This document shows, in pieces, positions 11,959 through 28,681 of a stretch of 64,000 nucleotides of DNA. The stretch is from Bacteroidia bacterium (GTDB lineage: Bacteria; Bacteroidota; Bacteroidia; Cytophagales; Cyclobacteriaceae). Numbering within the stretch: position 1 is the first letter of the stretch; the number at the start of each line of letters is the position of its first letter. The notes beneath the pieces were generated by a model. That model had not been told where the DNA came from, did no database searches, and saw nothing but the letters and a program-made list of their open reading frames with translations. The DNA is taken from the NCBI GenBank assembly GCA_030425425.1, contig JAUIAO010000002.1, positions 124,001 to 188,000 on the forward strand, in the 5' to 3' direction. The translations under genes and the position numbers were made by a program.

Positions 11959-13452
11959 TCAGAATTCGATTCCCAGATATTTCTTCGAAATTGTCTTAAT
12001 GATTCCGTTTACATCCGAAGAAATCTTCAACTTGTATACCATTCCTAAATAAAGAATGGATATCAAAATTGAACGGATAATCATATTAAACAAAGGAGGT
12101 AATGTGAGTGGGACATAATAAGCTCCAATTCCCAGTACCAAAGCCAAAACTAATAATTTAAGATGTCCGAAAGTGAAAGGAAAGAACTTATACTTCCAGT
12201 ATAAAAATAGGAACTTGGCAAAGTTGAATAAAGTAGTTGAAATCAGAAACGCCAAGCCGGCTCCATTTATCCCCCAGACTGGCAGCCACCAATAGTTTAG
12301 TACAAACATTAATGCTGCTGTAGCAACGAACATATATAGGTTCCACTTATAATACTTTGAGTAAATCAGAATCTCCGAATTGAAGCTAAAAGTGAGATCG
12401 ATCAACTTGGCAAAAGCTACAAATAATACCACATAGAAACCTTGTGAAATTGATCCTCCTTTTGGGATCAATTCGAACAAATCTGAGAGATTGACCAATA
12501 CACCGAGAAGAAAAATGGTGGCAATGACGCTCAAACTTTCTGCAGCTCTCTTATAAAGAGCATTAACTTCCACCAAATTGTTGTTCTTGAACTCTCGGGA
12601 GAGAATAGGCGAAATGATCTGCACCATAGACCTTTTTGGCATTTCTATGACTATTCCAATGTAAAAACAGGTCGCGTAAATGCCGTTTGCATCATCACCA
12701 ATCATGGCAGGGATCATCATGAAACTGATATTGCCATAGATAGAATTGCTACCCACCAGTAATAAGTTATAGCCGCCGAAATAGATCATTTTCCTGATCC
12801 AAAGCATCGGAATGTCAAAAACCCTGAACGTGATTTTAATGGGGTATTTGGTGAAAAGGTAAACTATTAGAATTGCCAAAGATGAACCATATACCAATAT
12901 CAATGAATAAATCATCGTATCAAAGTCTATAAACCCAGCTGAAAAAGTGAGAATTAAGATGATATTTCCGATTCTTAAATAGACCTCTTTGAGTGCCGTA
13001 GGTACTATGACATTTAGATGAACCCTACTATATGATTGTAATTGAGAATAGAGTGTTTGGAATATCAGAATAATCAAACTGACGTAGATGAACTGATAAT
13101 ATTTTGGTGAGTTTTCACTGAAATAACCAGTTATGTAATCCTCGGTGAAATAGACGACTATTCCGGTAAGAGCACAACCAAAGATGATTACTAATAATTG
13201 TAAACTATAAAACTTGGTATCAAGCTCTTGGTTCTCTTTGAGAAAAGGGAAATATCTGATATAAGTACCCGGCATGCCGAGGGTAATAAATGGAGTAACT
13301 AGTAAAGCGTTTGAAACAACAAGGGTAAAAAGACCGATTTGATCCAATTCTAAATAAGCAGGTCTCAATACTATGGTGTTGAAAAAACCAAGTGCTACAC
13401 CTATGTAGGCGAATAAAGCTCCCCAGAAACTTTGTTTGATGACTACTCCCAT
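11959..13452 (-). CDS. Wzx-like polysaccharide flippase
   Basis: A 497-residue membrane protein with about 14 predicted helices, starting MGVVIKQSFWGALFAYIGVALGF split around the first helix. This is the MATE/MOP-superfamily polysaccharide exporter pattern, moving undecaprenyl-linked repeat units across the inner membrane. Features such as PAYLELDQIGLFTLV and LNYWWLPVWGINGAGLAF are characteristic. It heads the minus-strand operon with YfhO and the methyltransferase and is divergent from the PFOR operon across about 560 bases. No matching polymerase gene is seen in the window. Confidence 0.87.
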   Translation of the reverse strand: MGVVIKQSFWGALFAYIGVALGFFNTIVLRPAYLELDQIGLFTLVVSNALLVTPFITLGMPGTYIRYFPFLKENQELDTKFYSLQLLVIIFGCALTGIVVYFTEDYITGYFSENSPKYYQFIYVSLIILIFQTLYSQLQSYSRVHLNVIVPTALKEVYLRIGNIILILTFSAGFIDFDTMIYSLILVYGSSLAILIVYLFTKYPIKITFRVFDIPMLWIRKMIYFGGYNLLLVGSNSIYGNISFMMIPAMIGDDANGIYATCFYIGIVIEMPKRSMVQIISPILSREFKNNNLVEVNALYKRAAESLSVIATIFLLGVLVNLSDLFELIPKGGSISQGFYVVLFVAFAKLIDLTFSFNSEILIYSKYYKWNLYMFVATAALMFVLNYWWLPVWGINGAGLAFLISTTLFNFAKFLFLYWKYKFFPFTFGHLKLLVLALVLGIGAYYVPLTLPPLFNMIIRSILISILYLGMVYKLKISSDVNGIIKTISKKYLGIEF

Positions 13453-14011
13453 AATATCAGCGGGTGAATTTAATGGAATTTCAATGAGTGTCCTCCATTA
13501 TTCCTAGAAGTCTTTGTGACTAAATAGCCGCCTTACACTTCCATGATCTGAGTTGGTTAAATTTCAGATGGATGATAAACTTTTTCGATGGTTCTGCTTC
13601 GAGGTAGTAGATGGAGTTTGCTTTACAAGCATAAAGACACCCGACCGAAAGGGTTGAGGAATAATTCCCCAAGTGGGATTCATTCTGGTAGTAGTGAATT
13701 TTGAGGTGTGGCTACAGCGACAATTAGTGGTGAAATTAACATGGACTACTGCGCAAGATTGAGACGGAGATCACGGATCGTTCTTCATGATTTTCGGTAT
13801 TTTCTCGGTAACAATTGTTACAAATAATTAATGTGTATTATGTACACAGAAATTTCAGGGTATCAGAAACGCCTTTTTAAAGGTCTGAGGGTCGTTTTTT
13901 TGGCTCTTGATATAAATCATCGTGAATCCTGACCAATTCCCTAATATACCATTCCCATTCTGGCCAACTTCATGCTCTCAAATGAAGACAAAAATTAAAA
14001 AGTCAATACTC
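13453..14011. other. Divergent intergenic region upstream of the PFOR-Rnf operon
   Basis: About 560 bases between the divergent flippase and PFOR genes. No coding sequence was recognised. It contains two dyads at 13808-13821 and 13832-13848. An in-frame GTG at 13922 and an ATG at 13982 extend the PFOR frame upstream but encode residues without similarity to the family. Confidence 0.55.
13808..13848 (+). promoter_or_regulatory. Two candidate operators upstream of PFOR
   Basis: GTAACAATTGTTAC at 13808-13821 is a perfect 14-bp palindrome. Ten bases later TGTGTA (13832-13837) and TACACA (13843-13848) form a dyad with a five-base spacer. The second resembles CRP/FNR-type geometry only loosely. 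They lie about 165-200 bases upstream of the PFOR start chosen here. The regulator is unknown. Confidence 0.4.
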
Positions 14012-17000
14012 ATGGAAAACTCGCGATTCGTTACCATCGATGGAAACACAGCGGCTTCCAACATTGCTTACGCCTTCAGCGAAGTAGCGGCTATTTATCC
14101 AATTACACCTTCTTCTGATATGGGAGAAAAAGCAGACGCATGGGCTGCGATGGGTAAAAAGAACCTCTTCGGTGAAAAAGTGGACGTAATCCAAATGCAA
14201 TCGGAAGCAGGAGCGGCTGGAGCCATTCACGGAGCCCTCTCTGGGGGAGCCTTAGCCACCACATTTACAGCATCACAAGGTTTGCTCCTCATGGTGCCAA
14301 ACATGTTTAAAATAGCAGGGGAAATGCTCCCAACTGTGTTCCACGTATCGGCCCGATCTATTGCAGCTCAGGCCCTTTCTATTTTTGGGGATCACTCTGA
14401 TGTGACCAGTACTCGAAGTACCGGTTTCGCGATGCTCTCTTCTAATAATGTGCAGGAAGCGCAGGATATGGCAGCCATTGCTCACCTGGCAACTCTAAAA
14501 TCCAAAATTCCTTTCATACACTTCTTTGATGGGTTCCGGACTTCTCATTCAATTCAGAAAATCAAAGACCTGGATTACGACGTGTTGCGCTCTATGCTGG
14601 ATATGAAGTATGTAGAAGAATTCAGAAACGGCGCATTGAAACCTGAAGATCCTACTTGTAAGGTAGGTGCTCAAAACCCTGATGTTTACTTCCAGGGACG
14701 TGAAACAGTGAACAAGTATTATGATGCATGTCCTGCTATCGTACAGGAATACATGGACTTGTTCTATGAAAAAACTGGCCGTAAATATGAATTATTCGAA
14801 TATATAGGAGACCCTAAAGCCGAGAAAATAGTAATCTCAATGGGTTCTTCTAATGAAACCATAGAAGAGACCATCAATTTCCTTACTGCAAGGGGAGAAA
14901 AAGTAGGTGCCTTGAAGGTAAGACTTTACAGACCATTCTCTGTGGAGGCATTTATGGATAAAATTCCTGAAACAGTGAAGAAAATTGCTGTTTTGGATAG
15001 AACAAAAGAGCCAGGATCTCCAGGCGAACCTCTTTACATGGATGTAGTGACAGCCTTCAAAGGCCGATCTGATGTAGAGATCATTGGTGGTAGATATGGA
15101 TTGTCATCCAAAGAATTCACACCGAGTATGGTGAAAGCGGTATTTGACCATGTGGACAATGACGGATGGAACGGATTTACAGTAGGTATTAATGACGATG
15201 TGACCAACTTGTCTATTCCTGTGAATGAAGAACTGGATACAGAGCAAAAAGGAATCATCAGATGTAAATTCTGGGGATATGGCTCTGATGGTACCGTATC
15301 AGCCAACAAAAACTCTATCAAGATTATTGGTCAGAGTACAGATCAATATGTGCAAGGTTACTTCCAGTACGATTCTAATAAATCTGGTGGATGGACTGTT
15401 TCTCACCTGAGGTTTGGTAAAGAACAGATTCAGAGTGAATACCTGCTTAATAAAGTGGAATTTGTTGCCTTACACAGATCACAATACATCGGTAAGTTTG
15501 ACATTCTGGACGGCATCTCGGATGGAGGTACATTCCTGATCAACAGTAGCCAGAAACCTGAAAGAGTTTTTGGTCTTTTTACTGATGATATGCAAAAAAC
15601 GATCAGAGATAAGAAAATCAAAGTTTACACTATAGACGCGGCTAAGATTGCAAAGAGTGTTGGGCTTGGTGGACGTATCAATAGTGTGATGCAGACAGCT
15701 TTCTTCAAGCTTTCTGGTGTTCTTCCTGAGAAAGAAGCCATTGACCTGATCAAGCAATACGTCGAAAAACAGTTTGCGAGAAAAGGTCAGGAAATAGTAG
15801 AGATGAACTGGAAAGCGATCGATGCGGCAGTAGATGCGGTAGAGGAAGTACCAGTACCAGCTCCGGCAGAAGGAGAGAAAAGCGGAAAACATCAAGATGT
15901 AGTTCCGGAAGGTTTCGGAGATTTTGCAGACAAAGTGATGGATCCAGTATTGAGACTGAAGGGTGATAATGTGCCTGTATCAATGATGTCTCTCAATGGA
16001 ACGATTCCTACAGCTACTAAAAAGTTGGAAAACAAAGGTCGTCCTGGCAACCCTGCGAAATGGGCTGCTAAGCTGGACTTTGTGCCAGAGCACAATTCCA
16101 CAGAAACATATTTCGAATATCCTGGATCATGTTCAGGATGTGGTGAAGTACCATATGTTCACTTAGTAACTCAGCTTTATGGAGACAGGATGGTCATTGC
16201 CAATGCTACAGGTTGTTCTTCTATCTACGGTGGTACTTTCCCAAGTACTCCATATACTAAGGATAGCAACGGATTCGGACCTGCATGGGCCAACTCACTA
16301 TTTGAAGATAATGCGGAGTATGGTTTTGGATTTAGATTGGCAATAGATGCCAACCGTAAACAACTGAAAACAAATATCGAAGCATATCTTGAAAAATATC
16401 CATCTACAAAATTGGCCACAGCGATGAAAGCTCAGCTGGCTATGTGGAAAGAGGTAAACAACAAAGCAAAAGAGAATGCCACTGAGGTGAAGAAGCTATT
16501 AGCTGAAACACACGCTGATGATTCTATGAAATCTGTGCTGGACAAAATCAAAGAGCTTCAGGATTATCTGGTAGAAAAATCTGTTTGGATTTTCGGTGGA
16601 GACGGTTGGGCATATGATATCGGATTCAGTGGTGTAGATCACGTGATGGCGTCTGATAAAAATGTGAACATTCTGGTAATGGACACTGAAGTATATTCCA
16701 ATACCGGAGGTCAGTCTTCTAAAGCTACTCCACGGGGAGCAGTTGCTAAATTCGCATCGAATGGTAAGCAGTTGAGTAAGAAAAACCTTGGTTTAATGAT
16801 GACTTCTTACAGCAATGCTTATGTAGCATCTGTCAACATGGGGCAGGATAGAGATCAGGTAGCCAAAGCATTCGTAGAAGCTGAAGCTCACGATGGGCCA
16901 TCTATCATCATTGCATACTCACCGTGTATTGCTCATGGTTATAACCTACAGCAGGCGAAGCGTCAGTCTGAGCGAGCAGCTAAGTCTGGTTACTGGCCTA

Positions 17001-17278
17001 TCTACAGGTTCAACCCAGAATTGCGAAACGAGGGTAAGGATCCATTTATCTGGGAGACTCCTGAGATCGATACCGATTTCAATAAGTATGTGGAGGAAGA
17101 AATCCGATACAGAACATTGATGAGAGCAAATCCTAAGGAAGCAGAAAGATTGATCAAACTGGCGAAGGAAGATAACGCTCGCCGATTCGAAGAGATCAAG
17201 CATCTGGCTGCTACGCCTAGCGCTCCGAAGAAAGAAGTAGAAACTGAAGAACCAATAAACGAAACTGTCCATGAGTGA
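14012..17278 (+). CDS. nifJ: Pyruvate:ferredoxin/flavodoxin oxidoreductase lacking the internal 2[4Fe-4S] ferredoxin domain
   Basis: Oxidatively decarboxylates pyruvate to acetyl-CoA. From ATG 14012 it has 1088 residues; single-chain PFORs are usually about 1170-1230. The start was chosen because MENSRFVTIDGNTAA is where family similarity begins. The N-terminus has AIYPITPSSDMGEKAD; the TPP site is GGDGWAYDIGF and MDTEVYSNTGGQ. The proximal-cluster cysteines are present: Cys707 and Cys710 (CSGCGE), Cys735 (TGCSS) and Cys972 (SPCIAHG). The domain with two CxxCxxCxxxCP motifs, which normally lies just before CSGCGE, is absent: only 22 residues separate Trp684 (GNPAKW) from Cys707. The frame is intact and both flanks align by memory with the family, so this is a clean domain loss. 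It overlaps the next gene by eight bases. Confidence 0.93.
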   Translation: MENSRFVTIDGNTAASNIAYAFSEVAAIYPITPSSDMGEKADAWAAMGKKNLFGEKVDVIQMQSEAGAAGAIHGALSGGALATTFTASQGLLLMVPNMFKIAGEMLPTVFHVSARSIAAQALSIFGDHSDVTSTRSTGFAMLSSNNVQEAQDMAAIAHLATLKSKIPFIHFFDGFRTSHSIQKIKDLDYDVLRSMLDMKYVEEFRNGALKPEDPTCKVGAQNPDVYFQGRETVNKYYDACPAIVQEYMDLFYEKTGRKYELFEYIGDPKAEKIVISMGSSNETIEETINFLTARGEKVGALKVRLYRPFSVEAFMDKIPETVKKIAVLDRTKEPGSPGEPLYMDVVTAFKGRSDVEIIGGRYGLSSKEFTPSMVKAVFDHVDNDGWNGFTVGINDDVTNLSIPVNEELDTEQKGIIRCKFWGYGSDGTVSANKNSIKIIGQSTDQYVQGYFQYDSNKSGGWTVSHLRFGKEQIQSEYLLNKVEFVALHRSQYIGKFDILDGISDGGTFLINSSQKPERVFGLFTDDMQKTIRDKKIKVYTIDAAKIAKSVGLGGRINSVMQTAFFKLSGVLPEKEAIDLIKQYVEKQFARKGQEIVEMNWKAIDAAVDAVEEVPVPAPAEGEKSGKHQDVVPEGFGDFADKVMDPVLRLKGDNVPVSMMSLNGTIPTATKKLENKGRPGNPAKWAAKLDFVPEHNSTETYFEYPGSCSGCGEVPYVHLVTQLYGDRMVIANATGCSSIYGGTFPSTPYTKDSNGFGPAWANSLFEDNAEYGFGFRLAIDANRKQLKTNIEAYLEKYPSTKLATAMKAQLAMWKEVNNKAKENATEVKKLLAETHADDSMKSVLDKIKELQDYLVEKSVWIFGGDGWAYDIGFSGVDHVMASDKNVNILVMDTEVYSNTGGQSSKATPRGAVAKFASNGKQLSKKNLGLMMTSYSNAYVASVNMGQDRDQVAKAFVEAEAHDGPSIIIAYSPCIAHGYNLQQAKRQSERAAKSGYWPIYRFNPELRNEGKDPFIWETPEIDTDFNKYVEEEIRYRTLMRANPKEAERLIKLAKEDNARRFEEIKHLAATPSAPKKEVETEEPINETVHE

Positions 17279-18299
17279 TTTAAGCACAACTTATCTAGGC
17301 ATTCCACTTAAAAATCCTTTGGTGGTAGGTGCCAGCAACCTGGTGACTGATATTAGTAATCTCATCAAGTTGGAAGAAGAAGGAGCTGCTGCGATCGTTT
17401 ACAAATCGCTGTTCGAAGAGCAAATTCAGCTCGAAAGCTACGCCATGGAAGAAGAGCAAAACTTGTACGAAGATTGGGACGCGGAGCACGCGTCCATCTT
17501 CCCAATGCTCGGACATGCCGGCCCAATGGAGCATCTTCACAAGTTGAAAATTGTGAAAGACACTTTGCAGATTCCGGTGATCGGAAGTTTGAACTGTGTG
17601 AATGAAGCTACCTGGGTGGAATATGCGGTGAAAATGGCTGAGACAGGTGTAGATGCTTTGGAACTTAATTTTTATGCCAATGTGATCGATCCTGAGAAAT
17701 CGGAGGAAGATATCATCGACGAGCAACTGAGAGTATTGAAAGCAGTGAAAGAGGCTGTAGAAATTCCAATCTCAGTGAAGCTTAGCCCATTCTATACCAA
17801 TGCTTTCAGAGTTGTAAAGAAAATGGAAGCATCAGGAGCAGATGGTTTTGTTTTGTTCAATCGCTTATTCCAACCAGATATCGATCTGGAAAAAGAAGAA
17901 CATCATTATCCATACAACTTCAGCTCTGCTGTAGATAGCAGAATCGCTTTGAGATATGCGGGATTGCTTCATAAGCAGATTCATGGTACGATAGTGAGCA
18001 ACACAGGTATTCTCAATGGCTCTGACGCCTTGAAAATGATCATGGCCGGTGCGGATGCCACACAGATTGTGAGTGCGATCTACAAGCGTGGTACTTCTCA
18101 TGTGGGTAAAATGCTCCGGGACATGGAAGAATGGATGGATATCCACGGGTATAAAACATTGGATGAGTTCAAAGGGAAACTTGCAAAAGTGAATATGAAT
18201 GATCCTTTCGCATATAAGCGAGCACAGTATGTTGATATCCTGATGAAATCAGAAATATTTATGCAATATCACCCAAAAGCGGGTGAAGATATTTACTAA
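17271..18299 (+). CDS. Dihydroorotate-dehydrogenase-like flavoprotein paralogue
   Basis: A 342-residue TIM-barrel protein of the PyrD/PreA superfamily. It has NPLVVGASNLVTD at the N-terminus, VDALELNFYAN, IPISVKLSPFY, and phosphate-binding SNTGILNGSDALKMIMAGAD with TQIVSAIY at the C-terminus, consistent with FMN binding. The NxSxPN segment of true dihydroorotate dehydrogenases is replaced by LNFYANVID, so pyrimidine synthesis is unlikely. Its ATG lies inside the PFOR stop region (ATGAGTGA), implying coupled translation. Genes of this kind often sit beside nifJ in related bacteria, as far as I recall. A role in electron transfer around PFOR is inferred; its substrate is unknown. Confidence 0.82.
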   Translation: MSDLSTTYLGIPLKNPLVVGASNLVTDISNLIKLEEEGAAAIVYKSLFEEQIQLESYAMEEEQNLYEDWDAEHASIFPMLGHAGPMEHLHKLKIVKDTLQIPVIGSLNCVNEATWVEYAVKMAETGVDALELNFYANVIDPEKSEEDIIDEQLRVLKAVKEAVEIPISVKLSPFYTNAFRVVKKMEASGADGFVLFNRLFQPDIDLEKEEHHYPYNFSSAVDSRIALRYAGLLHKQIHGTIVSNTGILNGSDALKMIMAGADATQIVSAIYKRGTSHVGKMLRDMEEWMDIHGYKTLDEFKGKLAKVNMNDPFAYKRAQYVDILMKSEIFMQYHPKAGEDIY

Positions 18300-18314
18300 T
18301 AACCTATAAAAATT

Positions 18315-18830
18315 ATGGCAAAAATTGGAATTTTCTACGGATCTACAGAAGGCAACACAGAGAGAGTGGTTGGTCAGATTCAGGAAGCGCTAGGTGGCGA
18401 AGATGTAGCTGCTTTGCACAATGTAAACTCTTCTTCAGCAGAAGAAATGGAGCAATATGACTATCTGATGTTGGCTTGTTCTACATGGGATATTGGAGTG
18501 TTGCAGGAAGACTGGGATACTTTCGTTGACGAATTGGAAGATGTTGATTTCGAAGGTAAAACTGTGACTTATTTGGGTCTTGGTGATGCGGACGGGTACC
18601 CAGATACATTTGTTGATGGCCCGGGTCTAATTCACGAGCGTATCGCTGATTCTGGAGCCAAATTCGTTGGGTTCTGGCCTACAGACGGATATGACTTTGA
18701 AGAATCAAAGGCTATCATAGATGATAAATTCTTAGGATTGGTAATAGATGAAGACAATCAGGCTGACCAAACCGAAGAAAGAGTAGCTACATGGGTAGCG
18801 CAATTGAAAGAAGAAGGATTCGGTGCTTAG
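18315..18830 (+). CDS. Flavodoxin
   Basis: A 171-residue long-chain flavodoxin, a soluble one-electron carrier with FMN. The phosphate loop is FYGSTEGNTERVV near residues 7-19, followed by the two flavin-ring loops near LACSTWDIGVLQEDW and GLGDADGYPDTFVDG. It starts 15 bases after the DHOD-like gene and precedes RseC/Rnf, so it is placed to carry electrons from PFOR to Rnf. The name of the PFOR family includes flavodoxin as an acceptor, which supports this. Flavodoxins often replace ferredoxin when iron is low; no iron-type operator is evident here. Confidence 0.92.
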   Translation: MAKIGIFYGSTEGNTERVVGQIQEALGGEDVAALHNVNSSSAEEMEQYDYLMLACSTWDIGVLQEDWDTFVDELEDVDFEGKTVTYLGLGDADGYPDTFVDGPGLIHERIADSGAKFVGFWPTDGYDFEESKAIIDDKFLGLVIDEDNQADQTEERVATWVAQLKEEGFGA

Positions 18831-18865
18831 TGCACATCTAATAGTATAAGGAAGGAGCGAAAACA

Positions 18866-19279
18866 ATGGACTCTTCAGATCAAATAGCGCACCGAGGAAT
18901 TGTCACCAACCTGGTTGGTGACAAGGCCATCATTCAGTTGATTCAGCCCGGATCTTGCCATTCGTGCAGCATCAAGGGCTTTTGTGGAGTGGAAGATGAT
19001 GACCGTTCGAGATTTGAAGTGTCCAACGCTCATTATGCGATTGGAGATCGCGTCAATGTAGACGTAAGCCCAAACAGTGGTTTTAAAGCTACTTTTTGGG
19101 CTTATCTTTTTCCATTTATCATGATGTTTGCCGTCATAGCGGTAGGTACATCATACGGTTACAATGAAGGTTTACTTGGTGGAATCGCCTTATTACTGTT
19201 GATTCCCTATTACCTCCTACTATCAGCCTTCAAAAAATACCTTACACGACATATTCACCTACATGTCAAGAAATTATGA
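18866..19279 (+). CDS. RseC/MucC-family protein of the Rnf/SoxR-reducing system
   Basis: A 137-residue membrane protein. The N-terminal soluble part contains the cysteine motif CHSCSIKGFCG (about residues 32-42), and two membrane helices follow (about residues 75-115). This is the RseC family, repeatedly found next to rnf genes and thought to assist the complex. It has one of the few clear Shine-Dalgarno sequences in the window, GGAAGGAG just upstream of ATG 18866. It overlaps rnfB by four bases (ATGA). Confidence 0.85.
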   Translation: MDSSDQIAHRGIVTNLVGDKAIIQLIQPGSCHSCSIKGFCGVEDDDRSRFEVSNAHYAIGDRVNVDVSPNSGFKATFWAYLFPFIMMFAVIAVGTSYGYNEGLLGGIALLLLIPYYLLLSAFKKYLTRHIHLHVKKL

Positions 19280-20238
19280 GTCAAGAAATTTTATATACAG
19301 TGCTTTTATTGGTTGCATTAGGAGCGCTGGCAGCAATAATATTATACTGGGTATCGCAGAAGTTTAAAGTACAGGAGAATCCCAAACTTGAAGAAGTAAT
19401 GGATGCTCTGCCAGCCACTAACTGTGGAGGTTGTGGGTTTGCCGGATGTAGCGGATTTGCAAGTGCTTTGGTCAATGCAGATGACCTTTCCCCATATCAC
19501 TGCCCTGTCGGGGGCAATGAAGTGATGCAGGAGGTTGCCAGTATATTAGGAAAAGAAGTACAAGAGAAGGATCCGTTTGTGGCGGTGGTAAAATGTGCCG
19601 GTGCAATAGGCGTGAGAGTACATACTACAAATTATGATGGAGCAGCTAATTGTTCAATTGCTTCTGATCTGTACAGTGGCGAACGTGGCTGTTCAGACGG
19701 TTGTGTTGGATTAGGAGAATGCGTGGACGCGTGTGATTTTGATGCCATGTATATGGACGAAACCACTGGTCTGCCGGTAGTCATAGAAGATAAATGTACT
19801 GCATGTAATGCGTGTGTGACGACTTGCCCAAAAAACATCATCGATCTATGGCCTAAGGGCAAAAGAGATAAGAAAATCTATATAGCATGTGTCAATGAGG
19901 AAAAAGGAGGAACGGCCCGAAAGGAATGTTCCATGGCTTGCTCCGGATGTGCAAAATGTGCGGATGAATGTAAATATGATGCCATCACCGTAGAGAATGA
20001 TCTTGCCAAAATTGATTATGACCTCTGTAAGCTCTGCGGCAAATGCGTAGTGGCCTGCGACGTGAGGAATATCGTGGCGGATGGATTCAAGCCAGAAATG
20101 ATCGATAAGCTTGCAGAGAAGCGTGAGGCAAGGTTAGAAAAAGAGAAAGAAGCTAAACGGCTGGAGCGCGAAAAAGCGAAAGCCGAAGCAGCGGCTGCAA
20201 AAGCAGCGAAGGAAGAAGTGTCAGATAAATCAGAATAA
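19276..20238 (+). CDS. rnfB: Rnf complex subunit B (polyferredoxin)
   Basis: A 320-residue electron-entry subunit. One N-terminal membrane helix is followed by the CGGCGFAGCSGFA cluster motif (about residues 50-62). Then come at least four cysteine groups: CSDGCVGLGECVDAC, CTACNACVTTCP, CSMACSGCAKCADEC and CKLCGKCVVAC. This is the long, multi-cluster form rather than the short enterobacterial RnfB. The C-terminus is a charged alanine/lysine/glutamate helix from about residue 275. RnfB takes electrons from ferredoxin or, here perhaps, flavodoxin, and passes them toward RnfC and NAD. Start overlaps the rseC stop, showing coupling. Confidence 0.94.
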   Translation: MSQEILYTVLLLVALGALAAIILYWVSQKFKVQENPKLEEVMDALPATNCGGCGFAGCSGFASALVNADDLSPYHCPVGGNEVMQEVASILGKEVQEKDPFVAVVKCAGAIGVRVHTTNYDGAANCSIASDLYSGERGCSDGCVGLGECVDACDFDAMYMDETTGLPVVIEDKCTACNACVTTCPKNIIDLWPKGKRDKKIYIACVNEEKGGTARKECSMACSGCAKCADECKYDAITVENDLAKIDYDLCKLCGKCVVACDVRNIVADGFKPEMIDKLAEKREARLEKEKEAKRLEREKAKAEAAAAKAAKEEVSDKSE

Positions 20239-20307
20239 GCCATTAGTGTCTTGATTTTTACGAAATGATTCAGGTGTACTTATTCCAGAATTGATAAAGT
20301 TTTAAAG

Positions 20308-20325
20308 ATTCAACTCTAGTTGATA
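20308..20325 (+). promoter_or_regulatory. 18-base dyad repeat directly upstream of rnfC
   Basis: The sequence ATTCAACTCTAGTTGATA contains the dyad TCAACT-CT-AGTTGA (20310-20323). The same 18 bases occur exactly at 37045-37062, upstream of a beta-barrel gene. Here it ends one base before the rnfC ATG at 20326, within the 87-base rnfB-rnfC gap. It may be an operator or affect translation. Confidence 0.45.
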
Positions 20326-21666
20326 ATGTTACTAAATCTTACAAAAAAGTTGAAGCGCTTCCATAAAGGAGGTATTCATCCGGAAGAAAATAAATTTTCG
20401 GCAGCTGCCCCTATCACTGAGCTGCCTTTGCCAAAAAGTGTGACCATTCCGATTACACAGCACATAGGAGCACCAGCCAAAGTAGTGGTGGAAAGAGGAG
20501 ATACCGTAAAAGTGGGGCAAATCATTGCCACACATGAGGGATTTGTCTCATCCAATATACATTCGTCCGTATCTGGTAAAGTAGGGAAGATTGATAAAGT
20601 GATGGACAGTACGGGATTCAAGAAAATGGCCATCAATATCCGTGTGAAGGGCGATGAATGGGAGGAATCGATAGATCGTACTCCAGATCTGATCAAGGAT
20701 ATTTCTTATGCTCCCGATGAAATCATCAAAAAGATTATGGAAGCCGGTGTAGTTGGTATGGGTGGAGCCGCTTTTCCGAGCCATGTGAAGCTTTCTGTGC
20801 CCCCAGACAAAAAAGTAGATCATCTGATTATCAATGGTGTAGAATGTGAGCCTTATCTCACAGCTGACCACCGAATCATGTTGGAGAAACCACATGAAAT
20901 CATGGTTGGGACACATATATTGATGAAAGCACTTGGTGTGCCAAAAGCCATCATCGGCATAGAAGCCAATAAATGGGATGCCATTGAGAAACTGGCAGAA
21001 GTAGCTAAAGACTATCCCGGCATTGAGGTGCAGGGATTGAGGGTACAATATCCGCAAGGTGGTGAGAAGCAATTGATAGAAGCTCTACTCGGCAGGGAAG
21101 TTCCATCCGGAGGTTTGCCGTTTGATGCTGGGTGCGTGGTTCATAATGTTGGAACGATCTATTCAATGTATATGGCTGTGCAGAAAAACAGGCCATTGAT
21201 AGAGCGAGTGGTGACCGTAACGGGAAAGGATGTGAAAACACCTTCTAACTTTTCTGTGAGAATCGGAACACCGATTTCTGACTTGATTGATGCGGCAGGT
21301 GGCTTACCGGAGAATACAGGAAAAATCATCAGTGGTGGCCCTATGATGGGAAAAGCCCTGAATGAATTGGATATTCCGATCGCGAAAGCTACATCCGGAC
21401 TATTACTAATTCCTGATGAAAAAGCACACAGACAGGAAGTATACAACTGTGTGAGGTGCGGTAAATGTGTGGATGTATGTCCAATGGGACTGCAGCCCGT
21501 GGAATTGTCACTCTTGTCAAAAGGAAAAGATCTGGAGGGTGTGAAAGCCAATGGGATAATGGACTGTATAGAATGCGGATCATGTTCATTCATTTGTCCG
21601 TCCAATAGGCCAATCCTCGATTATATCAGATATGGTAAGTCTAACCTCAAAAAGGCACCAAAATGA
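20326..21666 (+). CDS. rnfC: Rnf complex subunit C
   Basis: A 446-residue subunit that exchanges electrons with NAD(H). The first ATG is at 20326; the frame extends two codons further to a TTG, which is less likely. Features: GGIHPEENK at the N-terminus, the GMGGAAFPSHVKL nucleotide-binding segment, the FMN/NADH-site region INGVECEPYLTADHR, and two C-terminal [4Fe-4S] motifs, CVRCGKCVDVCPMG and CIECGSCSFICPSNRP. It ends in a short basic tail, without the long alanine/lysine extension of E. coli RsxC. It overlaps rnfD by four bases. Confidence 0.95.
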   Translation: MLLNLTKKLKRFHKGGIHPEENKFSAAAPITELPLPKSVTIPITQHIGAPAKVVVERGDTVKVGQIIATHEGFVSSNIHSSVSGKVGKIDKVMDSTGFKKMAINIRVKGDEWEESIDRTPDLIKDISYAPDEIIKKIMEAGVVGMGGAAFPSHVKLSVPPDKKVDHLIINGVECEPYLTADHRIMLEKPHEIMVGTHILMKALGVPKAIIGIEANKWDAIEKLAEVAKDYPGIEVQGLRVQYPQGGEKQLIEALLGREVPSGGLPFDAGCVVHNVGTIYSMYMAVQKNRPLIERVVTVTGKDVKTPSNFSVRIGTPISDLIDAAGGLPENTGKIISGGPMMGKALNELDIPIAKATSGLLLIPDEKAHRQEVYNCVRCGKCVDVCPMGLQPVELSLLSKGKDLEGVKANGIMDCIECGSCSFICPSNRPILDYIRYGKSNLKKAPK

Positions 21667-22658
21667 GCACTCAATTATTAACAGTATCACCTTCACCGCA
21701 CGTATCGTCTCAGCTCACGATACCACAGATCATGCGTGCCGTGATTTTTGCCATGCTTCCAGCATTGGCCATATCCGTTTACAATTTTGGATTATCTGCA
21801 ATCATCGTCACACTGACCGCTGTAGTAAGTGCAGCTTTGTTTGAGTATGTGATTGCCCTGTACTTATTGAAGGTTAAGCCCAATCTCATGGATGGCTCTG
21901 CCATCATCACAGGGATGTTGCTTGCATTTAATGTTCCAGCCAACCTACCATGGTGGATTGTGATCATCGGTAGTGCTGTAGCCGTGGGAGTTGGTAAGAT
22001 GAGTTTTGGAGGATTGGGTAACAACCCTTTCAATCCGGCTTTGGTCGGCAGGGTATTCATGCTGATCTCTTTTCCAGTGCAAATGACCAACTGGCCAGTG
22101 CCAACATTCGCTAAAGTGGATGCTGTAACAGGTGCTACCGCATTGGGTGCTTTGAAAGAAGGACTGTTGCTTGGAAAAACCGTGCCTGAAATAATGCCTG
22201 AGCTGCCTTCTTATTCAGATATGTTTTTTGGATTTCAAGGAGGTAGCGTAGGTGAGATGTCTGCCCTGGCAATGATCATCGGACTGATCTATATGCTATG
22301 GAGAAAAATCATCACCTGGCACATTCCGATCAGTAATCTCGTGGCAGTGGCCATATTTTCAGGAATTTTCTACCTGATCAATCCAGACAGATTCGCTTCA
22401 CCGATATTTCATCTGATGACTGGTGGTGTACTTCTCGGTGCGATCTTCATGGCTACTGATTATGTGACCTCTCCATTTACTCACAAAGGAATGATCATTT
22501 TCGGAGTAGGAATCGGTTTGATTACCGTATTGATCCGACTGTTTGGAGGGTATCCGGAAGGAGTTTCATTCGCCATTTTGATCATGAACGCCTTTGTGCC
22601 TATCATTAATAAATATACAAAACCAGTAAAATTCGGAACTAAACCAGTGAAGTTATGA
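21663..22658 (+). CDS. rnfD: Rnf complex subunit D
   Basis: A 331-residue membrane subunit with about nine helices. It carries the covalent flavin attachment motif DAVTGATAL, where the second threonine binds FMN, and the segment GGLGNNPFNPALVGR typical of RnfD/NqrB. It shares four bases with rnfC and four with rnfG (ATGA overlaps), so expression is coupled. Together with RnfG, A and E it forms the ion-translocating membrane core. Confidence 0.95.
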   Translation: MSTQLLTVSPSPHVSSQLTIPQIMRAVIFAMLPALAISVYNFGLSAIIVTLTAVVSAALFEYVIALYLLKVKPNLMDGSAIITGMLLAFNVPANLPWWIVIIGSAVAVGVGKMSFGGLGNNPFNPALVGRVFMLISFPVQMTNWPVPTFAKVDAVTGATALGALKEGLLLGKTVPEIMPELPSYSDMFFGFQGGSVGEMSALAMIIGLIYMLWRKIITWHIPISNLVAVAIFSGIFYLINPDRFASPIFHLMTGGVLLGAIFMATDYVTSPFTHKGMIIFGVGIGLITVLIRLFGGYPEGVSFAILIMNAFVPIINKYTKPVKFGTKPVKL

Positions 22659-23257
22659 GCGCGAAAGATTCATCATTTGTAAGCATGCTGATTACGCTGG
22701 TAGTGGTTACCGGGGTGGCGGCCTTATCTCTTGGATTTGTTTTCAAGTTTACCGAAGAGCCAATTGCCGCTGCGAAAGCCGCTAAGCAAATGCGAGCCAT
22801 TCAGGGCGTGGTGGGCGATTATGACAATGATCCATTGGCAGAATCATTTATCATTTGTAAAGAAGGGGAGTTATTCCAAAAATGTGAGACCGGAGATAAA
22901 ACCAGTTTGACTTTTTACCCAGCCTCCATACAATCTGAATTATCTGCAACAGGAATCCAGACTTACTCTGAGAAGGGATATAGCGGCAGAATAGAAATCA
23001 TAGTAGGAGTGGATCAGGAGGGAGTGATCAAAAACATTGAGGTAGTCAGTCATGCTGAGACTCCAGGTTTAGGATCTAAAATGAGCTCTCCAAAATTCAA
23101 AGATCAATTCATTGGCTGGAAACTGGAAGACCAGCCTATCAAAGTGAAAAAAGATGGTGGAAAAGTGGATGCCATTTCTGGAGCGACCATTTCATCAAGA
23201 GCATTCAGTGATGCTGTGCAGTTAGCGTTAGAGGCATATAACCAATCAGAACAATGA
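22655..23257 (+). CDS. rnfG: Rnf complex subunit G
   Basis: A 200-residue subunit with one N-terminal membrane helix and a periplasmic flavin domain. The covalent FMN site is [12 protein letters not shown] near residue 175, and [11 protein letters not shown] is a family signature. The ATGA overlaps on both sides place it firmly in the rnf operon. It relays electrons between RnfD and the membrane core. Confidence 0.94.
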
Positions 23258-23853
23258 GTAAAGATATCAGCATAAAAGATAATTTGACCAAAGGGTTTTT
23301 TAGAGAAAATCCGGTATTTGTCCTGCTTTTGGGACTTTGTCCAACTCTGGGAGTTACCACCTCCGCGATCAATGGGTTGGGAATGGGCCTTGCCACCATG
23401 TTCGTATTGATACTTAGCAATGTGGTGATTTCTCTGGTTAGAAATCTGATTCCTAAGAAAGTGCGGATTCCTTCATTCATTGTTATCATAGCTTCTTTCG
23501 TGACCATAGTGGATTTACTGATGGCCGCTTACCTGCCTGGCCTTCACGAAGCATTGGGCTTGTTTATCCCACTGATCGTTGTGAACTGTATCGTGCTGGG
23601 AAGAGCGGAAGCTTTTGCTTCCAAAAACCCGATTGGACATTCGGCAATTGATGGTTTAGGAATGGGTATAGGGTTTACGTTCGCACTAGTGCTTTTGGGA
23701 GGTATCAGAGAGATTCTTGGTAATTATTCCATTTTCGGATTCAAATTCATGGAAGCTGATGGCATTCTGATGTTCATCTTAGCCCCGGGAGCATTTTTGG
23801 TTTTAGGATTCATCATTGGATTTTTCGAATGGAGAAAACTTAAAAAAGCTTAG
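23254..23853 (+). CDS. rnfE: Rnf complex subunit E
   Basis: A 199-residue polytopic membrane subunit with about six helices. It shows [19 protein letters not shown] near the N-terminus and [20 protein letters not shown], each with a cysteine that in this family helps form a membrane-embedded iron-sulfur centre shared with RnfA. It ends 48 bases before rnfA, the largest gap among the membrane genes. Confidence 0.94.
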
Positions 23854-23901
23854 TTATAAGGTGCATCAAACTTCTGACACCCAACATCTAACAAATTAGA
23901 C

Positions 23902-24477
23902 ATGGAACATTATTTAATCATATTAGTCTCAGCCATATTCATCAACAACATCGTGTTGTCACGATTTTTGGGAGTATGTCCATTCCTCGGTGTGAGTAAG
24001 AATACTTCCACTGCTGTTGGTATGGGAGGAGCTGTTTTGTTCGTAATGACAGTCGCGACCATAGTTACATTTCTGATTTACAATTACCTTTTACTACCTC
24101 TCAATATCGCTTATTTGCAAACGGTCGCCTATATATTGGTGATTGCATTTTTGGTACAGGTAGTGGAGATTGTACTGAAGAAAGTAAGCCCGGATTTGTA
24201 TCAGGCACTTGGAGTATTTCTCCCTTTGATCACTACCAATTGCGCTATTCTAGGTGTAGCTATTTTGGTGGTTCAGAATGAATATAACCTGATGGAGAGT
24301 GTGGTTTTCGCCATTGCTAATGCAATAGGTTTTACTCTGGCCATTGTGTTATTCTCTAGTTTAAGAGAGCATATAGACAGAGCTGATCTACCTCCGGCTA
24401 TGAAAGGAGTGCCTGCCGCATTGATTATGGCTGGTATTCTGAGCATGGCGTTTATGGGTTTTGCAGGATTGGTATAA
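23902..24477 (+). CDS. rnfA: Rnf complex subunit A
   Basis: A 191-residue polytopic membrane subunit, homologous to RnfE. Features are INNIVLSRFLGVCPFLGV and LGVFLPLITTNCAILG, with the two conserved cysteines. It is the last gene of the PFOR-Rnf operon and is followed 25 bases later by a terminator. Gene order rseC-rnfBCDGEA is complete, so a functional Rnf complex is expected. Confidence 0.95.
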   Translation: MEHYLIILVSAIFINNIVLSRFLGVCPFLGVSKNTSTAVGMGGAVLFVMTVATIVTFLIYNYLLLPLNIAYLQTVAYILVIAFLVQVVEIVLKKVSPDLYQALGVFLPLITTNCAILGVAILVVQNEYNLMESVVFAIANAIGFTLAIVLFSSLREHIDRADLPPAMKGVPAALIMAGILSMAFMGFAGLV

Positions 24478-24502
24478 AAATATTTTTTGTAGGTGATAGT
24501 GA

Positions 24503-24532
24503 GGAGTGGGTCTTGTGGCTCGCTCCTTTTTT
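24503..24532 (+). terminator. Terminator of the PFOR-Rnf operon
   Basis: GGAGTGGGTC (24503-24512) pairs with GGCTCGCTCC (24517-24526) as a 10-bp RNA stem with three G-U pairs, loop TTGT, followed by six T residues. It marks the end of the roughly 10.5-kb operon. Confidence 0.8.
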
Positions 24533-24629
24533 GTATCTGAAATTGATTTTTATCTATTTCTTCGATGCGATTTGTCATTCAATGTAGCCACGCTCATTCA
24601 TAACTTGGTGGCATTAATTGATATCAATC

Positions 24630-25013
24630 ATGGAAATAATAACTAGCAAACACCTTCATACCTCAATAGAACAATACAATTCTCTGATGGAAGTACTCAA
24701 TAAGCCTAAGCGGGACCTTGTTCCGATAGCGGTTATTGAATTGATTAAAAATTCTATCTGTGGCTTCATGTCGGCTTATCTACATGAGAATGGAGTGGAA
24801 AATATAGACAGAGAAGATATTTTGGCCTTGCAGCAAGCCTGTGGAGCACTAGAGCCTACCTTTTTGGAGTTTAATTTCGAATCAATTGCAGCCCTTATGG
24901 AGGATGATAATTTTGCCTATTCCAGTGAATTAGGTGAAGATCCACTCAATAGGTATTTGGACAAATTGAATAGAACCAAAGATCTGGTAATCAGATCTGT
25001 AAATAGAGGGTAA
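24630..25013 (+). CDS. Uncharacterised helical protein, possibly HEPN-like
   Basis: A 127-residue protein of unknown function. The ATG at 24630 is preferred over an in-frame TTG at 24618, which would lie inside the palindrome ATTGATATCAAT (24617-24628). The sequence is predominantly helical, with no signal peptide or metal motif. The stretch SAYLHENGVENIDREDIL resembles the second half of HEPN-type helical bundles, but the defining residues are not certain, so this is only a suggestion. It is a single gene, with terminators on both sides. Confidence 0.55.
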   Translation: MEIITSKHLHTSIEQYNSLMEVLNKPKRDLVPIAVIELIKNSICGFMSAYLHENGVENIDREDILALQQACGALEPTFLEFNFESIAALMEDDNFAYSSELGEDPLNRYLDKLNRTKDLVIRSVNRG

Positions 25014-25775: not shown

Positions 25776-28193
25776 TTATAATTGAAGTTTATATTTTACA
25801 CCCAAACTGAAGTTTATTCCCATATCATCAGCAAAGTATCTGAGTTGATCGGTGTAACTTCTATAAGAGTTATTTAAGAGATTGTTTACTTTGAATAGCA
25901 ACGAGAATGACTTGTAATCAGCAGAAATAGCCAAATCAATAAGAAAATAACCATTAGGTGCTGCCATCAAATCAAAGTTTGAGTTATTCACCGCAAAAAG
26001 GGTCACATCATTCTCTTGTGCTTCGAGAATTTCACGAGCTGTTATTACTCTTGGAGCGCGATATTGTTTGAAAAAATAATTGAGTTTCAAAGAAGATTTG
26101 ATCCCGGTAAATGGCCCAATTTTTTTCGTAGAATAATGGAGGTCATAGGCCATATTCGGAGGAGGAATATTGACTAGGTATCCGTCATTTTTCAGATCTT
26201 CAGCCCATAAATAATTCGCTCGGAATTGTGATATCCAATTCCTGTTGTGTTTGAAATGGGCACTAAAATCAATACCCGAGAAAAGTGCATCTGTTTGTTC
26301 GAATAGGAAATATGGAAATGCCCCCCTCACCGTATTGGTGATTCCACCTGGGCGAGAATAGATATAATTGGATATGTAATTGATATAGCCGGTGATTTCT
26401 GCGTCAATTTTTGAAGTTTTCCAGTTGTAGCTATTTACCCATTTGAAACCCATTTCGGATGAACTTTCCTTGTCATCTTCGGTAAGAATACTGTTGGTTT
26501 CTATTTCATTTTGAGTATCATATTCAAATCTCCATAGGCCATAGTAAATCCGAGATTGATGACGTCCGTAGCTGTATAATTCAGAAATGTTCGGAGGTCT
26601 CCAAGCTGTACCTATGTTAGATCGGAAAGATCTGTTTTTATCGATTTTTCTTCTATAACCGACGGTCGCTGAGCCATTTTTATAGATTATCTCATTTCGA
26701 TACACATCGTTATTTGGCTCTCGCCCCCTGATAGAATTGTATTGATAATCAAATCGTGTTCCGATTTCCAGCCAGTCTTTGCTCGAAATCTGACGGCTTT
26801 CTATCAAGTAAAGTCCTAATCTGGATACATTATAATTCGGAACGAAAGGCACCGTATTGGTTCCTGGTATATTGTTGTTGTCTTGATATAGACCTTGCAA
26901 TCCTATGCTTCCCATCCAATTGCCGATTTGAGGGTGTTTCCAATCTATGTCTAAAGTCTGGCTAAAGAGCTCCAGATCGATGGAAGGACTGGTTCCTCTT
27001 CTTAAATCATATTCCTGCCTTTTGTTGATCTGCAGCGCATACTGAAAATCCAGTGTTTGATCATGTCCATTTAGCTTTCCCCCGAGTTTTACAAAATCGT
27101 GCTGAACAGTTTGTTTTGGATTGTTGATGTCATAATCAAATGGTTTGGTGTCTGGAGGAACAATGCTTTCCATGCTATTGATCAAGTCCTCAAAGTTTCC
27201 ATTGACCGATGCTCTGAGTATGCCTAATTCTTGTTCAAAATGTGAATAATAGATATCGAAATCCATTTTGGCTAAATCGTACCTGGCACCCATAGCAGCA
27301 CTATATTCATTTTTCCCTGAATTGGTAAGTATGTAATTCGGAGCACTTAAGTCGCCTTGTTTTAGCCATGAGCTCTGCACCATATAGGCAGTTCGGTGAA
27401 AACCCTGATTCAGCTGAACGTTACCTTCCAAAGATCTTCCGTTTGATTGTGCAGTAACACCAGTTTCAACTTTCAATGGCTGAAACAAGTCCATTTTGGG
27501 AGGGTTGATAAGGATTACTCCACCAAGCGCATCCGGTCCATATCTCACTGTAGCAGCACCTTTGATTACTTCCAGACTCTCTATCAGTGATGGATCTATC
27601 TCTGGCGCATGATCTGCTCCCCAGTTTTGGAATTCATGTCGTACGCCATTATTAATAATCAAAACCCGATTACTGAACAATCCATGAATCACAGGTTTCA
27701 TGATGTTTTGACCCGTCTTGATTACAGAGACGCCACTGATATTTCCTGCCAGGCTTGCCAGTGATCCCGTTTTGTTTTGTTCCAATTCTGTGGCTGAGAG
27801 ACTGCTCACAGTTGCTGACTCCAGATCACCGTGATTGCTTTCACCTTCTACTACAATACTTTCCAAAGTAAAGCTGGACGGTGCAAGGTAGATTTTGGGT
27901 AGTTTATGGTAGATGTCGTGGTGGTGAGTTTTTTCTTTATATCCAATAAATGAAAAGATCAAGTCAAACTCCTTGTTACATATGTTAGATATTTTGAAAT
28001 ATCCATTTTCATCAGCTGTGGTTCCCTTTTGAGTTCCTTTTACCTGTACTGTTCCATATGGTAATGGTTCCCCAGTAGAATAATCATACAAATGACCTTC
28101 TACGGCATTATCACAATTTTGAGACTGAGCCCAAACTGAGAAGGAGAACACAAGCATCAGCGCTACCAATATGTTTTTAGACAATAGAGTCAT
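25776..28193 (-). CDS. ZnuD-like TonB-dependent outer-membrane receptor
   Basis: An 805-residue receptor. A signal peptide (to about residue 22) is followed by a carboxypeptidase-like beta domain (about 30-110), the plug (about 115-250) with VIHGLFSNRVLIINNGV and the signature HEFQNWGADHAPEIDP, then a 22-stranded barrel ending in KYKLQL. The GADHAPEID segment strongly resembles the zinc receptor ZnuD. The N-domain contains a histidine cluster (THHHDIYHKLP). It is 66 bases downstream of the Fur-family gene with no own promoter seen, so the two are probably co-transcribed. Zinc is the best substrate guess; other metals remain possible. Confidence 0.85.
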   Translation of the reverse strand: MTLLSKNILVALMLVFSFSVWAQSQNCDNAVEGHLYDYSTGEPLPYGTVQVKGTQKGTTADENGYFKISNICNKEFDLIFSFIGYKEKTHHHDIYHKLPKIYLAPSSFTLESIVVEGESNHGDLESATVSSLSATELEQNKTGSLASLAGNISGVSVIKTGQNIMKPVIHGLFSNRVLIINNGVRHEFQNWGADHAPEIDPSLIESLEVIKGAATVRYGPDALGGVILINPPKMDLFQPLKVETGVTAQSNGRSLEGNVQLNQGFHRTAYMVQSSWLKQGDLSAPNYILTNSGKNEYSAAMGARYDLAKMDFDIYYSHFEQELGILRASVNGNFEDLINSMESIVPPDTKPFDYDINNPKQTVQHDFVKLGGKLNGHDQTLDFQYALQINKRQEYDLRRGTSPSIDLELFSQTLDIDWKHPQIGNWMGSIGLQGLYQDNNNIPGTNTVPFVPNYNVSRLGLYLIESRQISSKDWLEIGTRFDYQYNSIRGREPNNDVYRNEIIYKNGSATVGYRRKIDKNRSFRSNIGTAWRPPNISELYSYGRHQSRIYYGLWRFEYDTQNEIETNSILTEDDKESSSEMGFKWVNSYNWKTSKIDAEITGYINYISNYIYSRPGGITNTVRGAFPYFLFEQTDALFSGIDFSAHFKHNRNWISQFRANYLWAEDLKNDGYLVNIPPPNMAYDLHYSTKKIGPFTGIKSSLKLNYFFKQYRAPRVITAREILEAQENDVTLFAVNNSNFDLMAAPNGYFLIDLAISADYKSFSLLFKVNNLLNNSYRSYTDQLRYFADDMGINFSLGVKYKLQL

Positions 28194-28258
28194 TTTGGAT
28201 TTTTAAAAAAGGGTAGGAATGGACTGTAGCTTATTGATTTAATGAGAAAAATCATTCT

Positions 28259-28681
28259 TCAATTGGAACTACATTGATTACAAATTCCATTGACAATCAC
28301 ATCTATACTCGCCATTTCATAGTTGTCAGGAAGTGTCGCTGCTTTTATTTCCACTGGGGTATCAATGCATTCTGTAGAGCCACAGGATGTGCACCTGAAA
28401 TGCATATGATTATGATGATGTGCAGCCACATCACAGTCTTTGCATAAGCCATACACTGCCGAACCGCTATCACCGGGGATTTTGTGTAGTAGTCCATTTT
28501 CTTCGAAGGAATGTAATGTTCGATATAGTGTTACTCTATCGTATTCTTGAAATTTATCTTCAAGGTCTTTGATGGAGACTGCTTTTGTATGCTCTTGAAA
28601 GTATTCCAGGACATCCATTCTACAGTCCGTGATTCGCAATTTGTGATTTTTCAGGCTTTTTTTGAGCTCACTATACTTCAT
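28259..28681 (-). CDS. Fur-family metal-responsive repressor, probably Zur-like
   Basis: A 140-residue regulator. The winged helix spans about residues 1-80 (RVTLYRTLHSFEENGLLHKI as recognition region). The metal-binding half has the histidine cluster HHHNHMHFRC, the structural zinc pairs CTSC and CNQC, and CKDC. The family is certain; the split between Fur, Zur and PerR rests on context: it sits directly before a ZnuD-like receptor. Its promoter carries a TGCAA-N5-TTGCA dyad, repeated before the lipoprotein gene, suggesting autoregulation. The -7 element almost touches the ATG, so the message is nearly leaderless. Confidence 0.85.
   Translation of the reverse strand: MKYSELKKSLKNHKLRITDCRMDVLEYFQEHTKAVSIKDLEDKFQEYDRVTLYRTLHSFEENGLLHKIPGDSGSAVYGLCKDCDVAAHHHNHMHFRCTSCGSTECIDTPVEIKAATLPDNYEMASIDVIVNGICNQCSSN

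Follow-up and report, generated by a model that had tools for sequence, protein, structure and literature searches.

How can a pyruvate:ferredoxin oxidoreductase (PFOR), an enzyme otherwise known with a three-cluster wire running from active site to surface, pass on its electrons when the last two clusters of that wire are absent? The question is raised by a gene at positions 14012-17278 (+) of a 64,000-nucleotide stretch of DNA, here called the window, from a Bacteroidia bacterium of the family Cyclobacteriaceae (assembly GCA_030425425.1, contig JAUIAO010000002.1, positions 124,001 to 188,000). Judged by its sequence, the short PFOR encoded there is a real, conserved and new architectural variant of a known enzyme, with an electron acceptor that we infer. 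As a natural single-chain PFOR devoid of the last two clusters, it makes their role testable with respect to acceptor choice, electron storage between one-electron steps and oxygen sensitivity; being smaller and lower in iron, and possibly paired with flavodoxin, it could also be of use for low-potential electron supply.

The missing domain and the retained cluster

The gene is a 1088-residue open frame with zero internal stops, in which the following features are recognized.

14012-17278, + strand: short (domain-V-less) single-chain PFOR/NifJ of 1088 aa with domains I, II, III, IV (EKR) and VI, assigned from profile, alignment and a model of mean pLDDT 85
16064-16129, + strand: 22-residue junction (residues 685-706), at the site of 122-140 residues including domain V in full-length enzymes, from alignments
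16130-16141, + strand: proximal-cluster ligands C707 and C710 (CSGCGE), cysteine in 34/34 short and 53/53 full-length rows
16214-16216, + strand: proximal-cluster ligand C735, cysteine in 34/34 short and 53/53 full-length rows
16925-16927, + strand: proximal-cluster ligand C972, cysteine in 33/34 short and 52/53 full-length rows, the remaining row of each group being a gap

The protein scores 1499.3 bits against the NifJ model TIGR02176 (cut-off 911.35) and matches POR_N, PFOR_II, POR, EKR (PF10371) and TPP_enzyme_C in Pfam, with no Fer4 domain at E <= 0.001; annotators should thus not take the TIGR02176 name as a sign that a ferredoxin domain is present. T32 (of YPITP) and R115, which bear on the pyruvate specificity expected of a D. 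africanus-type enzyme, are conserved, and the roles usually given to them are in line with PMC5020499. The best matches by sequence and by Foldseek are the PFORs of Desulfovibrio africanus (1b0p) and Moorella thermoacetica (6cin), which share with the window PFOR the domain order I-IV plus VI, the thiamine pyrophosphate (TPP) site and the proximal cysteines, but which carry domain V with its medial and distal clusters; the D. africanus chain moreover extends some 60 residues beyond the end of the match. Against 1b0p, the alignment jumps from query residue 685 (chain 684) to query residue 697 (chain 801), leaving absent about 105 residues that normally hold two [4Fe-4S] clusters. This missing piece is domain V, described as the carrier of the median and distal clusters in an excerpt of PMC5020499, and the legend of a figure in a T. 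kivui paper (PMC8091585, also an excerpt) gives domain V as present in most PFORs.

The comparison was extended to an alignment of 87 rows (85 different), comprising 34 short enzymes, that of the window included, and 53 full-length ones. Excluded beforehand were L001, L077 and any PFOR poorly covered in its C-terminal half, and the near relatives L009-L031 were thinned to every fourth number. Between W684 and C707 the window PFOR has exactly 22 residues, the number that a preliminary description had counted between GNPAKW and CSGCGE, and across the alignment this distance is 22 or 24 residues for short enzymes (34 rows) and 122-140 for full-length ones (53 rows). The eight domain-V cysteine columns hold no cysteine in any short row (0/34, window included) and are occupied in every full-length row (53/53), so the alignment with NifJ sequences proposed in that description confirms both the absence of the domain and the sharing of the junction. 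The same description had claimed that no two-cluster motif occurs anywhere in the chain and that the four proximal-cluster cysteines are intact. No CxxCxxCxxxC motif is indeed found anywhere in the window PFOR, and the domain V with two such motifs that characterizes D. africanus-type enzymes is lacking in the short enzymes, whereas the proximal-cluster cysteines of that type are present in the window PFOR: of the columns in which cysteine exceeds 80% in either group, short and full-length enzymes share just C707, C710, C735 and C972. The proximal cluster would be the one cluster per chain in the short PFOR.

Residues specific to the short enzymes include K687, Y700, P704, R947 and N456. The last is found in most short enzymes, at a position that is lysine in 97% of full-length ones, and C418 is present in all short rows versus 21% of full-length rows. 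The PFORs of Tetragenococcus and Loigolactobacillus, which match lengths had hinted to be further short forms, were rejected as such because two CxxCxxCxxxC motifs are present. An assembly error, a frameshift or a decaying gene as the source of the gap in the window was ruled out and is given virtually no credence: relatives with 66-81% identity in other genomes have the identical junction within open frames, and the junction is therefore regarded as real.

An AlphaFold2 model of the window PFOR from 110 sequences reaches a pLDDT of 85.1 and a pTM of 0.81, an earlier model from 20 close sequences having been poor (mean pLDDT 62), and the top 18 PDB matches found with Foldseek are PFORs. Superposed as a whole chain, however, the model fits the PDB PFORs badly, with a TM of about 0.54 and an rmsd of about 28 Å, so that parts of it are placed differently relative to each other, which may be either a monomer-modelling artefact or an effect of the short linker.

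Absence of domain V is also a feature of certain two-subunit 2-oxoacid:ferredoxin oxidoreductases (OFORs), among them a Magnetococcus enzyme (6n2n) that reportedly has one cluster. This one-cluster type has separate alpha and beta chains without domain IV, while the window PFOR is one 1088-residue chain with EKR. The Sulfolobus tokodaii OFOR (5b46/5b48) resembles the window PFOR in lacking domain V, and its one [4Fe-4S] cluster donates directly to an external carrier according to the excerpt of PMC5020499; it differs in its two chains, the absence of domain IV, another domain order, a ferredoxin carrier and its lineage. No description of a single-chain PFOR without the ferredoxin domain was found by title or abstract start among the papers listed from the open PMC literature, outside which most subscription journals lie, and the available portion of a PFOR phylogeny paper (PMC10968658) makes no mention of a single-chain form without domain V.

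Distribution and origin of the short form

A count of homologues without the domain across Bacteroidota, as suggested beforehand, shows that the short form recurs in genomes of the window's family. Among the matches listed, an even draw of 296 Bacteroidota genomes yields four with one uninterrupted match, all of them Cyclobacteriaceae; 13 of 196 genomes of this family (the window's included) have the short form and 11 more a split match of the full-length kind; and the short form occurs in 2 of 198 Spirochaetota genomes. A contig scan of named genomes, which covers 80 of 134 confirmed matches and may thus miss further lineages, finds short forms with 66-81% identity in metagenome-assembled genomes labelled Fulvivirga, Flammeovirgaceae, Cyclobacteriaceae, Cytophagales and Bacteroidetes, and in spirochaete ones.

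When the domain-V columns are left out of the trees, the short enzymes form one clade of Cytophagales and Spirochaetota, supported by an SH-like approximate likelihood ratio test (SH-aLRT) value of 100 in the tree of the 87-row alignment and by a bootstrap/SH-aLRT of 100/100 in a second tree with 21 short rows. Independent losses in Bacteroidota and Spirochaetota were rejected, as the enzymes make up one clade in both trees. The clade is nested among full-length single-chain PFORs, a position that fits the TIGR02176 assignment and upholds the earlier reading of the short form as a domain loss. Its nearest full-length neighbour belongs to G466, a genome sampled from Spirochaetota (100/97; next step 96/88), and the tree's four full-length Cyclobacteriaceae PFORs are placed far away.

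That the short form arose by loss instead of being ancestral is strongly indicated by these placements, and domain V was probably lost once, in the common ancestor of the Cytophagales and Spirochaetota short clade. The opposite polarity, in which the fused chain first existed without domain V, is very improbable. Unrooted counts need one change in either direction, but rooting on NifJ-like fusions with Fer4 motifs places the short clade several supported steps inside the tree. The very long branch of this outgroup makes the rooting weak; despite this weakness, the supported neighbours of the clade are full-length. Because the nearest full-length enzyme is that of the spirochaete G466 and the full-length PFORs of the window's family are distant, the Cytophagales copy was probably not made by in-place deletion in a Bacteroidota full-length PFOR. 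Transfer, with a direction that we presume, is the simplest reading for the Cytophagales short PFOR.

Two PFORs near the short clade (L063 and L067) lie on contigs labelled Nanoarchaeota and Paceibacterota, which may reflect mis-binning or gene transfer. A separate NifJ-like chain of about 1550-1690 residues, with about 27-30% identity to the window PFOR, is encoded in L147:461-5398 (G627), in G654 and G673 and in other family genomes. Its Fer4 motifs sit within a longer insert, and the L147 chain has an additional single-cluster ferredoxin domain at its C-terminus; among five other genomes of the same genus that were sampled, this long chain is found in three and the short PFOR in none.

The electron acceptor and the gene neighbourhood

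The PFOR gene heads a tightly packed run over 14012-24477 in the order PFOR, dihydroorotate dehydrogenase (DHOD)-like, flavodoxin, RseC-like, RnfB, C, D, G, E and A.

17271-18299, + strand: DHOD-like flavoprotein (PRK07565 type), overlapping the PFOR stop by 8 bases; NF005741 352.8 bits, cut-off 303
18315-18830, + strand: long-chain flavodoxin of 171 aa, the proposed acceptor; TIGR01752 219.7 bits, cut-off 146.75; the genome's only Flavodoxin_1 match at E <= 0.001
18866-19279, + strand: RseC/MucC-like protein (PF04246)
19276-20238, + strand: RnfB, polyferredoxin subunit of Rnf; TIGR01944 113.4 bits, cut-off 68.7
20320-21666, + strand: RnfC; TIGR01945 566.6 bits, scanned from 20326
21663-22658, + strand: RnfD; TIGR01946 above cut-off
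22655-23257, + strand: RnfG; TIGR01947 above cut-off
23254-23853, + strand: RnfE; TIGR01948 above cut-off
23902-24477, + strand: RnfA; TIGR01943 above cut-off
24501-24528, + strand: terminator-like hairpin 3' of rnfA (12-pair stem and T tail, consensus scan only), a possible operon end; the scan of 13400-24900 gives 11 sites versus 7.7 (sd 3.3) in shuffles

A split-off domain-V gene was looked for in this operon and none was seen: no small ferredoxin gene is present to supply the missing domain as an adjacent product, and Fe-S motifs occur there only in RnfB and RnfC.

The short PFOR is rather likely to be a one-cluster pyruvate:flavodoxin oxidoreductase, which arose by a single loss of domain V, with its TPP and CoA domains retained, and delivers electrons from the proximal cluster to flavodoxin and then to Rnf. 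Pyruvate and CoA would be converted to acetyl-CoA and CO2 at TPP, and the electrons would reach the single proximal [4Fe-4S] cluster, as the conserved residues and the known enzyme suggest. From there they may pass directly to flavodoxin docked in the pocket vacated by domain V, a step to which the gene context points, and the reduced flavodoxin would be oxidised by Rnf with reduction of NAD+ and formation of an ion gradient, in line with the neighbouring rnf genes and flavodoxin-Rnf chemistry. A 2016 title by Chowdhury reportedly refers to sodium-dependent reoxidation of flavodoxin by Rnf. PFOR is coupled to a flavodoxin-like domain in the pyruvate:NADP+ oxidoreductase of Euglena and Cryptosporidium, a fusion that retains the ferredoxin domain. 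The same proposed carrier chain, PFOR to flavodoxin to RNF, has been hypothesised for Treponema pallidum, the PFOR of which is called uncharacterised in the excerpt of PMC11717252. The earlier proposal of a direct exit of electrons from the proximal cluster has a structurally solved precedent in two-subunit OFORs without domain V, the sole cluster of which lies near the surface of a large pocket and reduces external ferredoxin (PMC5020499, excerpt); the acceptor part of that proposal is a deduction. From its list of flavodoxin, DHOD-like protein and RnfB, gene context favours flavodoxin as the likeliest acceptor, short of proving electron flow, while the main rival, an external ferredoxin, had been omitted although a 115-aa dicluster ferredoxin is encoded.

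The gene context was compared across loci counted as distinct when sharing at most 90% of sampled 25-residue words, with a flavodoxin profile built from the loci themselves that a very divergent flavodoxin could escape. Of 38 distinct short loci, 28 have a flank of 1.4 kb to each side; 25 of these have a flavodoxin and 25 a DHOD-like gene no more than 3 kb away, and 15 have an Rnf gene no more than 10 kb away. The corresponding numbers for 41 full-length loci that extend 3 kb to each side are 2 (both Tetragenococcus halophilus), 14 and 2, not counting L065 and L088, where a flavodoxin-like gene is near but the flank is too little. In every distinct Bacteroidota short locus with a downstream flank of 1.4 kb or more (27 of 27, window included), the DHOD-like and long-chain flavodoxin genes directly follow the PFOR gene, one further Bacteroidota locus ending at a contig end, and RnfC is within reach in 14 of the 17 with at least 9 kb downstream. 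Both genes are near in one of ten spirochaete short loci, several of which have little flank; in G433 the order is flavodoxin, short PFOR and DHOD-like, and upstream of these lie another DHOD-like gene and a gene for an Rnf-Nqr membrane subunit. Flavodoxin-like genes also stand near PFORs that retain the domain-V motifs in Tetragenococcus and Loigolactobacillus (L065, L066, L087 and L088).

On a genome-wide scale, exactly one Flavodoxin_1 match at E <= 0.001 is present in each of six Bacteroidota short genomes, beside PFOR or its Rnf genes, and five of six spirochaete short genomes have a match in a frame of 173-220 residues with E below 1e-18. Within the family, a long flavodoxin scores over the cut-off in 13/13 genomes with the short form, 7/11 with the full-length form and 9/172 with neither (PFOR classes being those among the matches listed). 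It adjoins PFOR in 12 of the 13 short genomes, the PFOR of the thirteenth stopping at a contig end, and lies on a separate contig in all seven full-length genomes that have one, some of whose PFORs are at contig ends, so adjacency is possible there.

Several observations weigh against flavodoxin as the dedicated acceptor. No flavodoxin is nearby in nine of ten distinct spirochaete short loci, several having little flank, and RnfC is missing from three of the 17 Bacteroidota short loci with at least 9 kb downstream (L038, L052 and L154). The shared Bacteroidota gene order is a matter of common descent and not 27 independent observations, and in 5 of the 13 short genomes the flavodoxin model also gives a second, weak match below its cut-off. 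As flavodoxin is found in 7 of the 11 full-length family genomes too, its use could be independent of domain loss. In addition, the window genome encodes, on other contigs, the 115-aa dicluster ferredoxin and a 74-aa single-cluster one. A free dicluster ferredoxin might therefore fill the vacated pocket, as modelled for archaeal two-subunit OFORs, with flavodoxin serving as an accessory or low-iron carrier. This arrangement seems unlikely but deserves weight: the S. tokodaii OFOR without domain V uses a 7Fe ferredoxin with a Km of 2-3 µM that was modelled into the pocket (PMC5020499, excerpt), and the required ferredoxin is encoded, but its gene lies on another contig (C15), apart from PFOR, whereas the flavodoxin gene adjoins the PFOR gene.

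A partner complex as acceptor, with the DHOD-like flavoprotein or the RnfB polyferredoxin drawing directly on the proximal cluster, is less probable still. In its favour, the DHOD-like gene overlaps that of PFOR and recurs in 27/27 Bacteroidota short loci and in G433, and RnfB belongs to the same gene run; however, the DHOD-like gene does not track domain loss, as 14 of 41 full-length PFOR loci also have it within 3 kb, and the three Bacteroidota loci without RnfC nearby speak against a direct Rnf partner. The 14 full-length loci with a neighbouring PRK07565-type gene include L074, L079, L084, L095, L167 and L168, and this proximity suggests that the DHOD-like protein is an unrecognised PFOR partner flavoprotein.

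Returning to flavodoxin as the preferred acceptor, a more far-reaching version can be put forward tentatively, namely that loss of domain V gave a dedicated iron-sparing one-cluster PFOR that is read by flavodoxin, perhaps with the DHOD-like protein bound, is hard-wired to Rnf, and is of spirochaete-like origin, having moved into Cytophagales. An iron-sparing role is plausible by analogy, because fldA goes up and pfor down under low iron in three host-associated Bacteroidetes, as stated in an excerpt of PMC10434189. As a further point for the flavodoxin reading, [FeFe]-hydrogenase has no match in the 12 Bacteroidota short genomes searched (G567 left out); it is matched in three of five spirochaete short genomes. 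The short PFOR is presumably used when oxygen is scarce, because E1-type 2-oxoacid dehydrogenase genes are also present, in 17 of 17 short-PFOR genomes examined. Just downstream of the rnf genes, at 25776-28681 (-), lie genes for a TonB-dependent receptor and a Fur-family regulator, which are possibly relevant to iron control.

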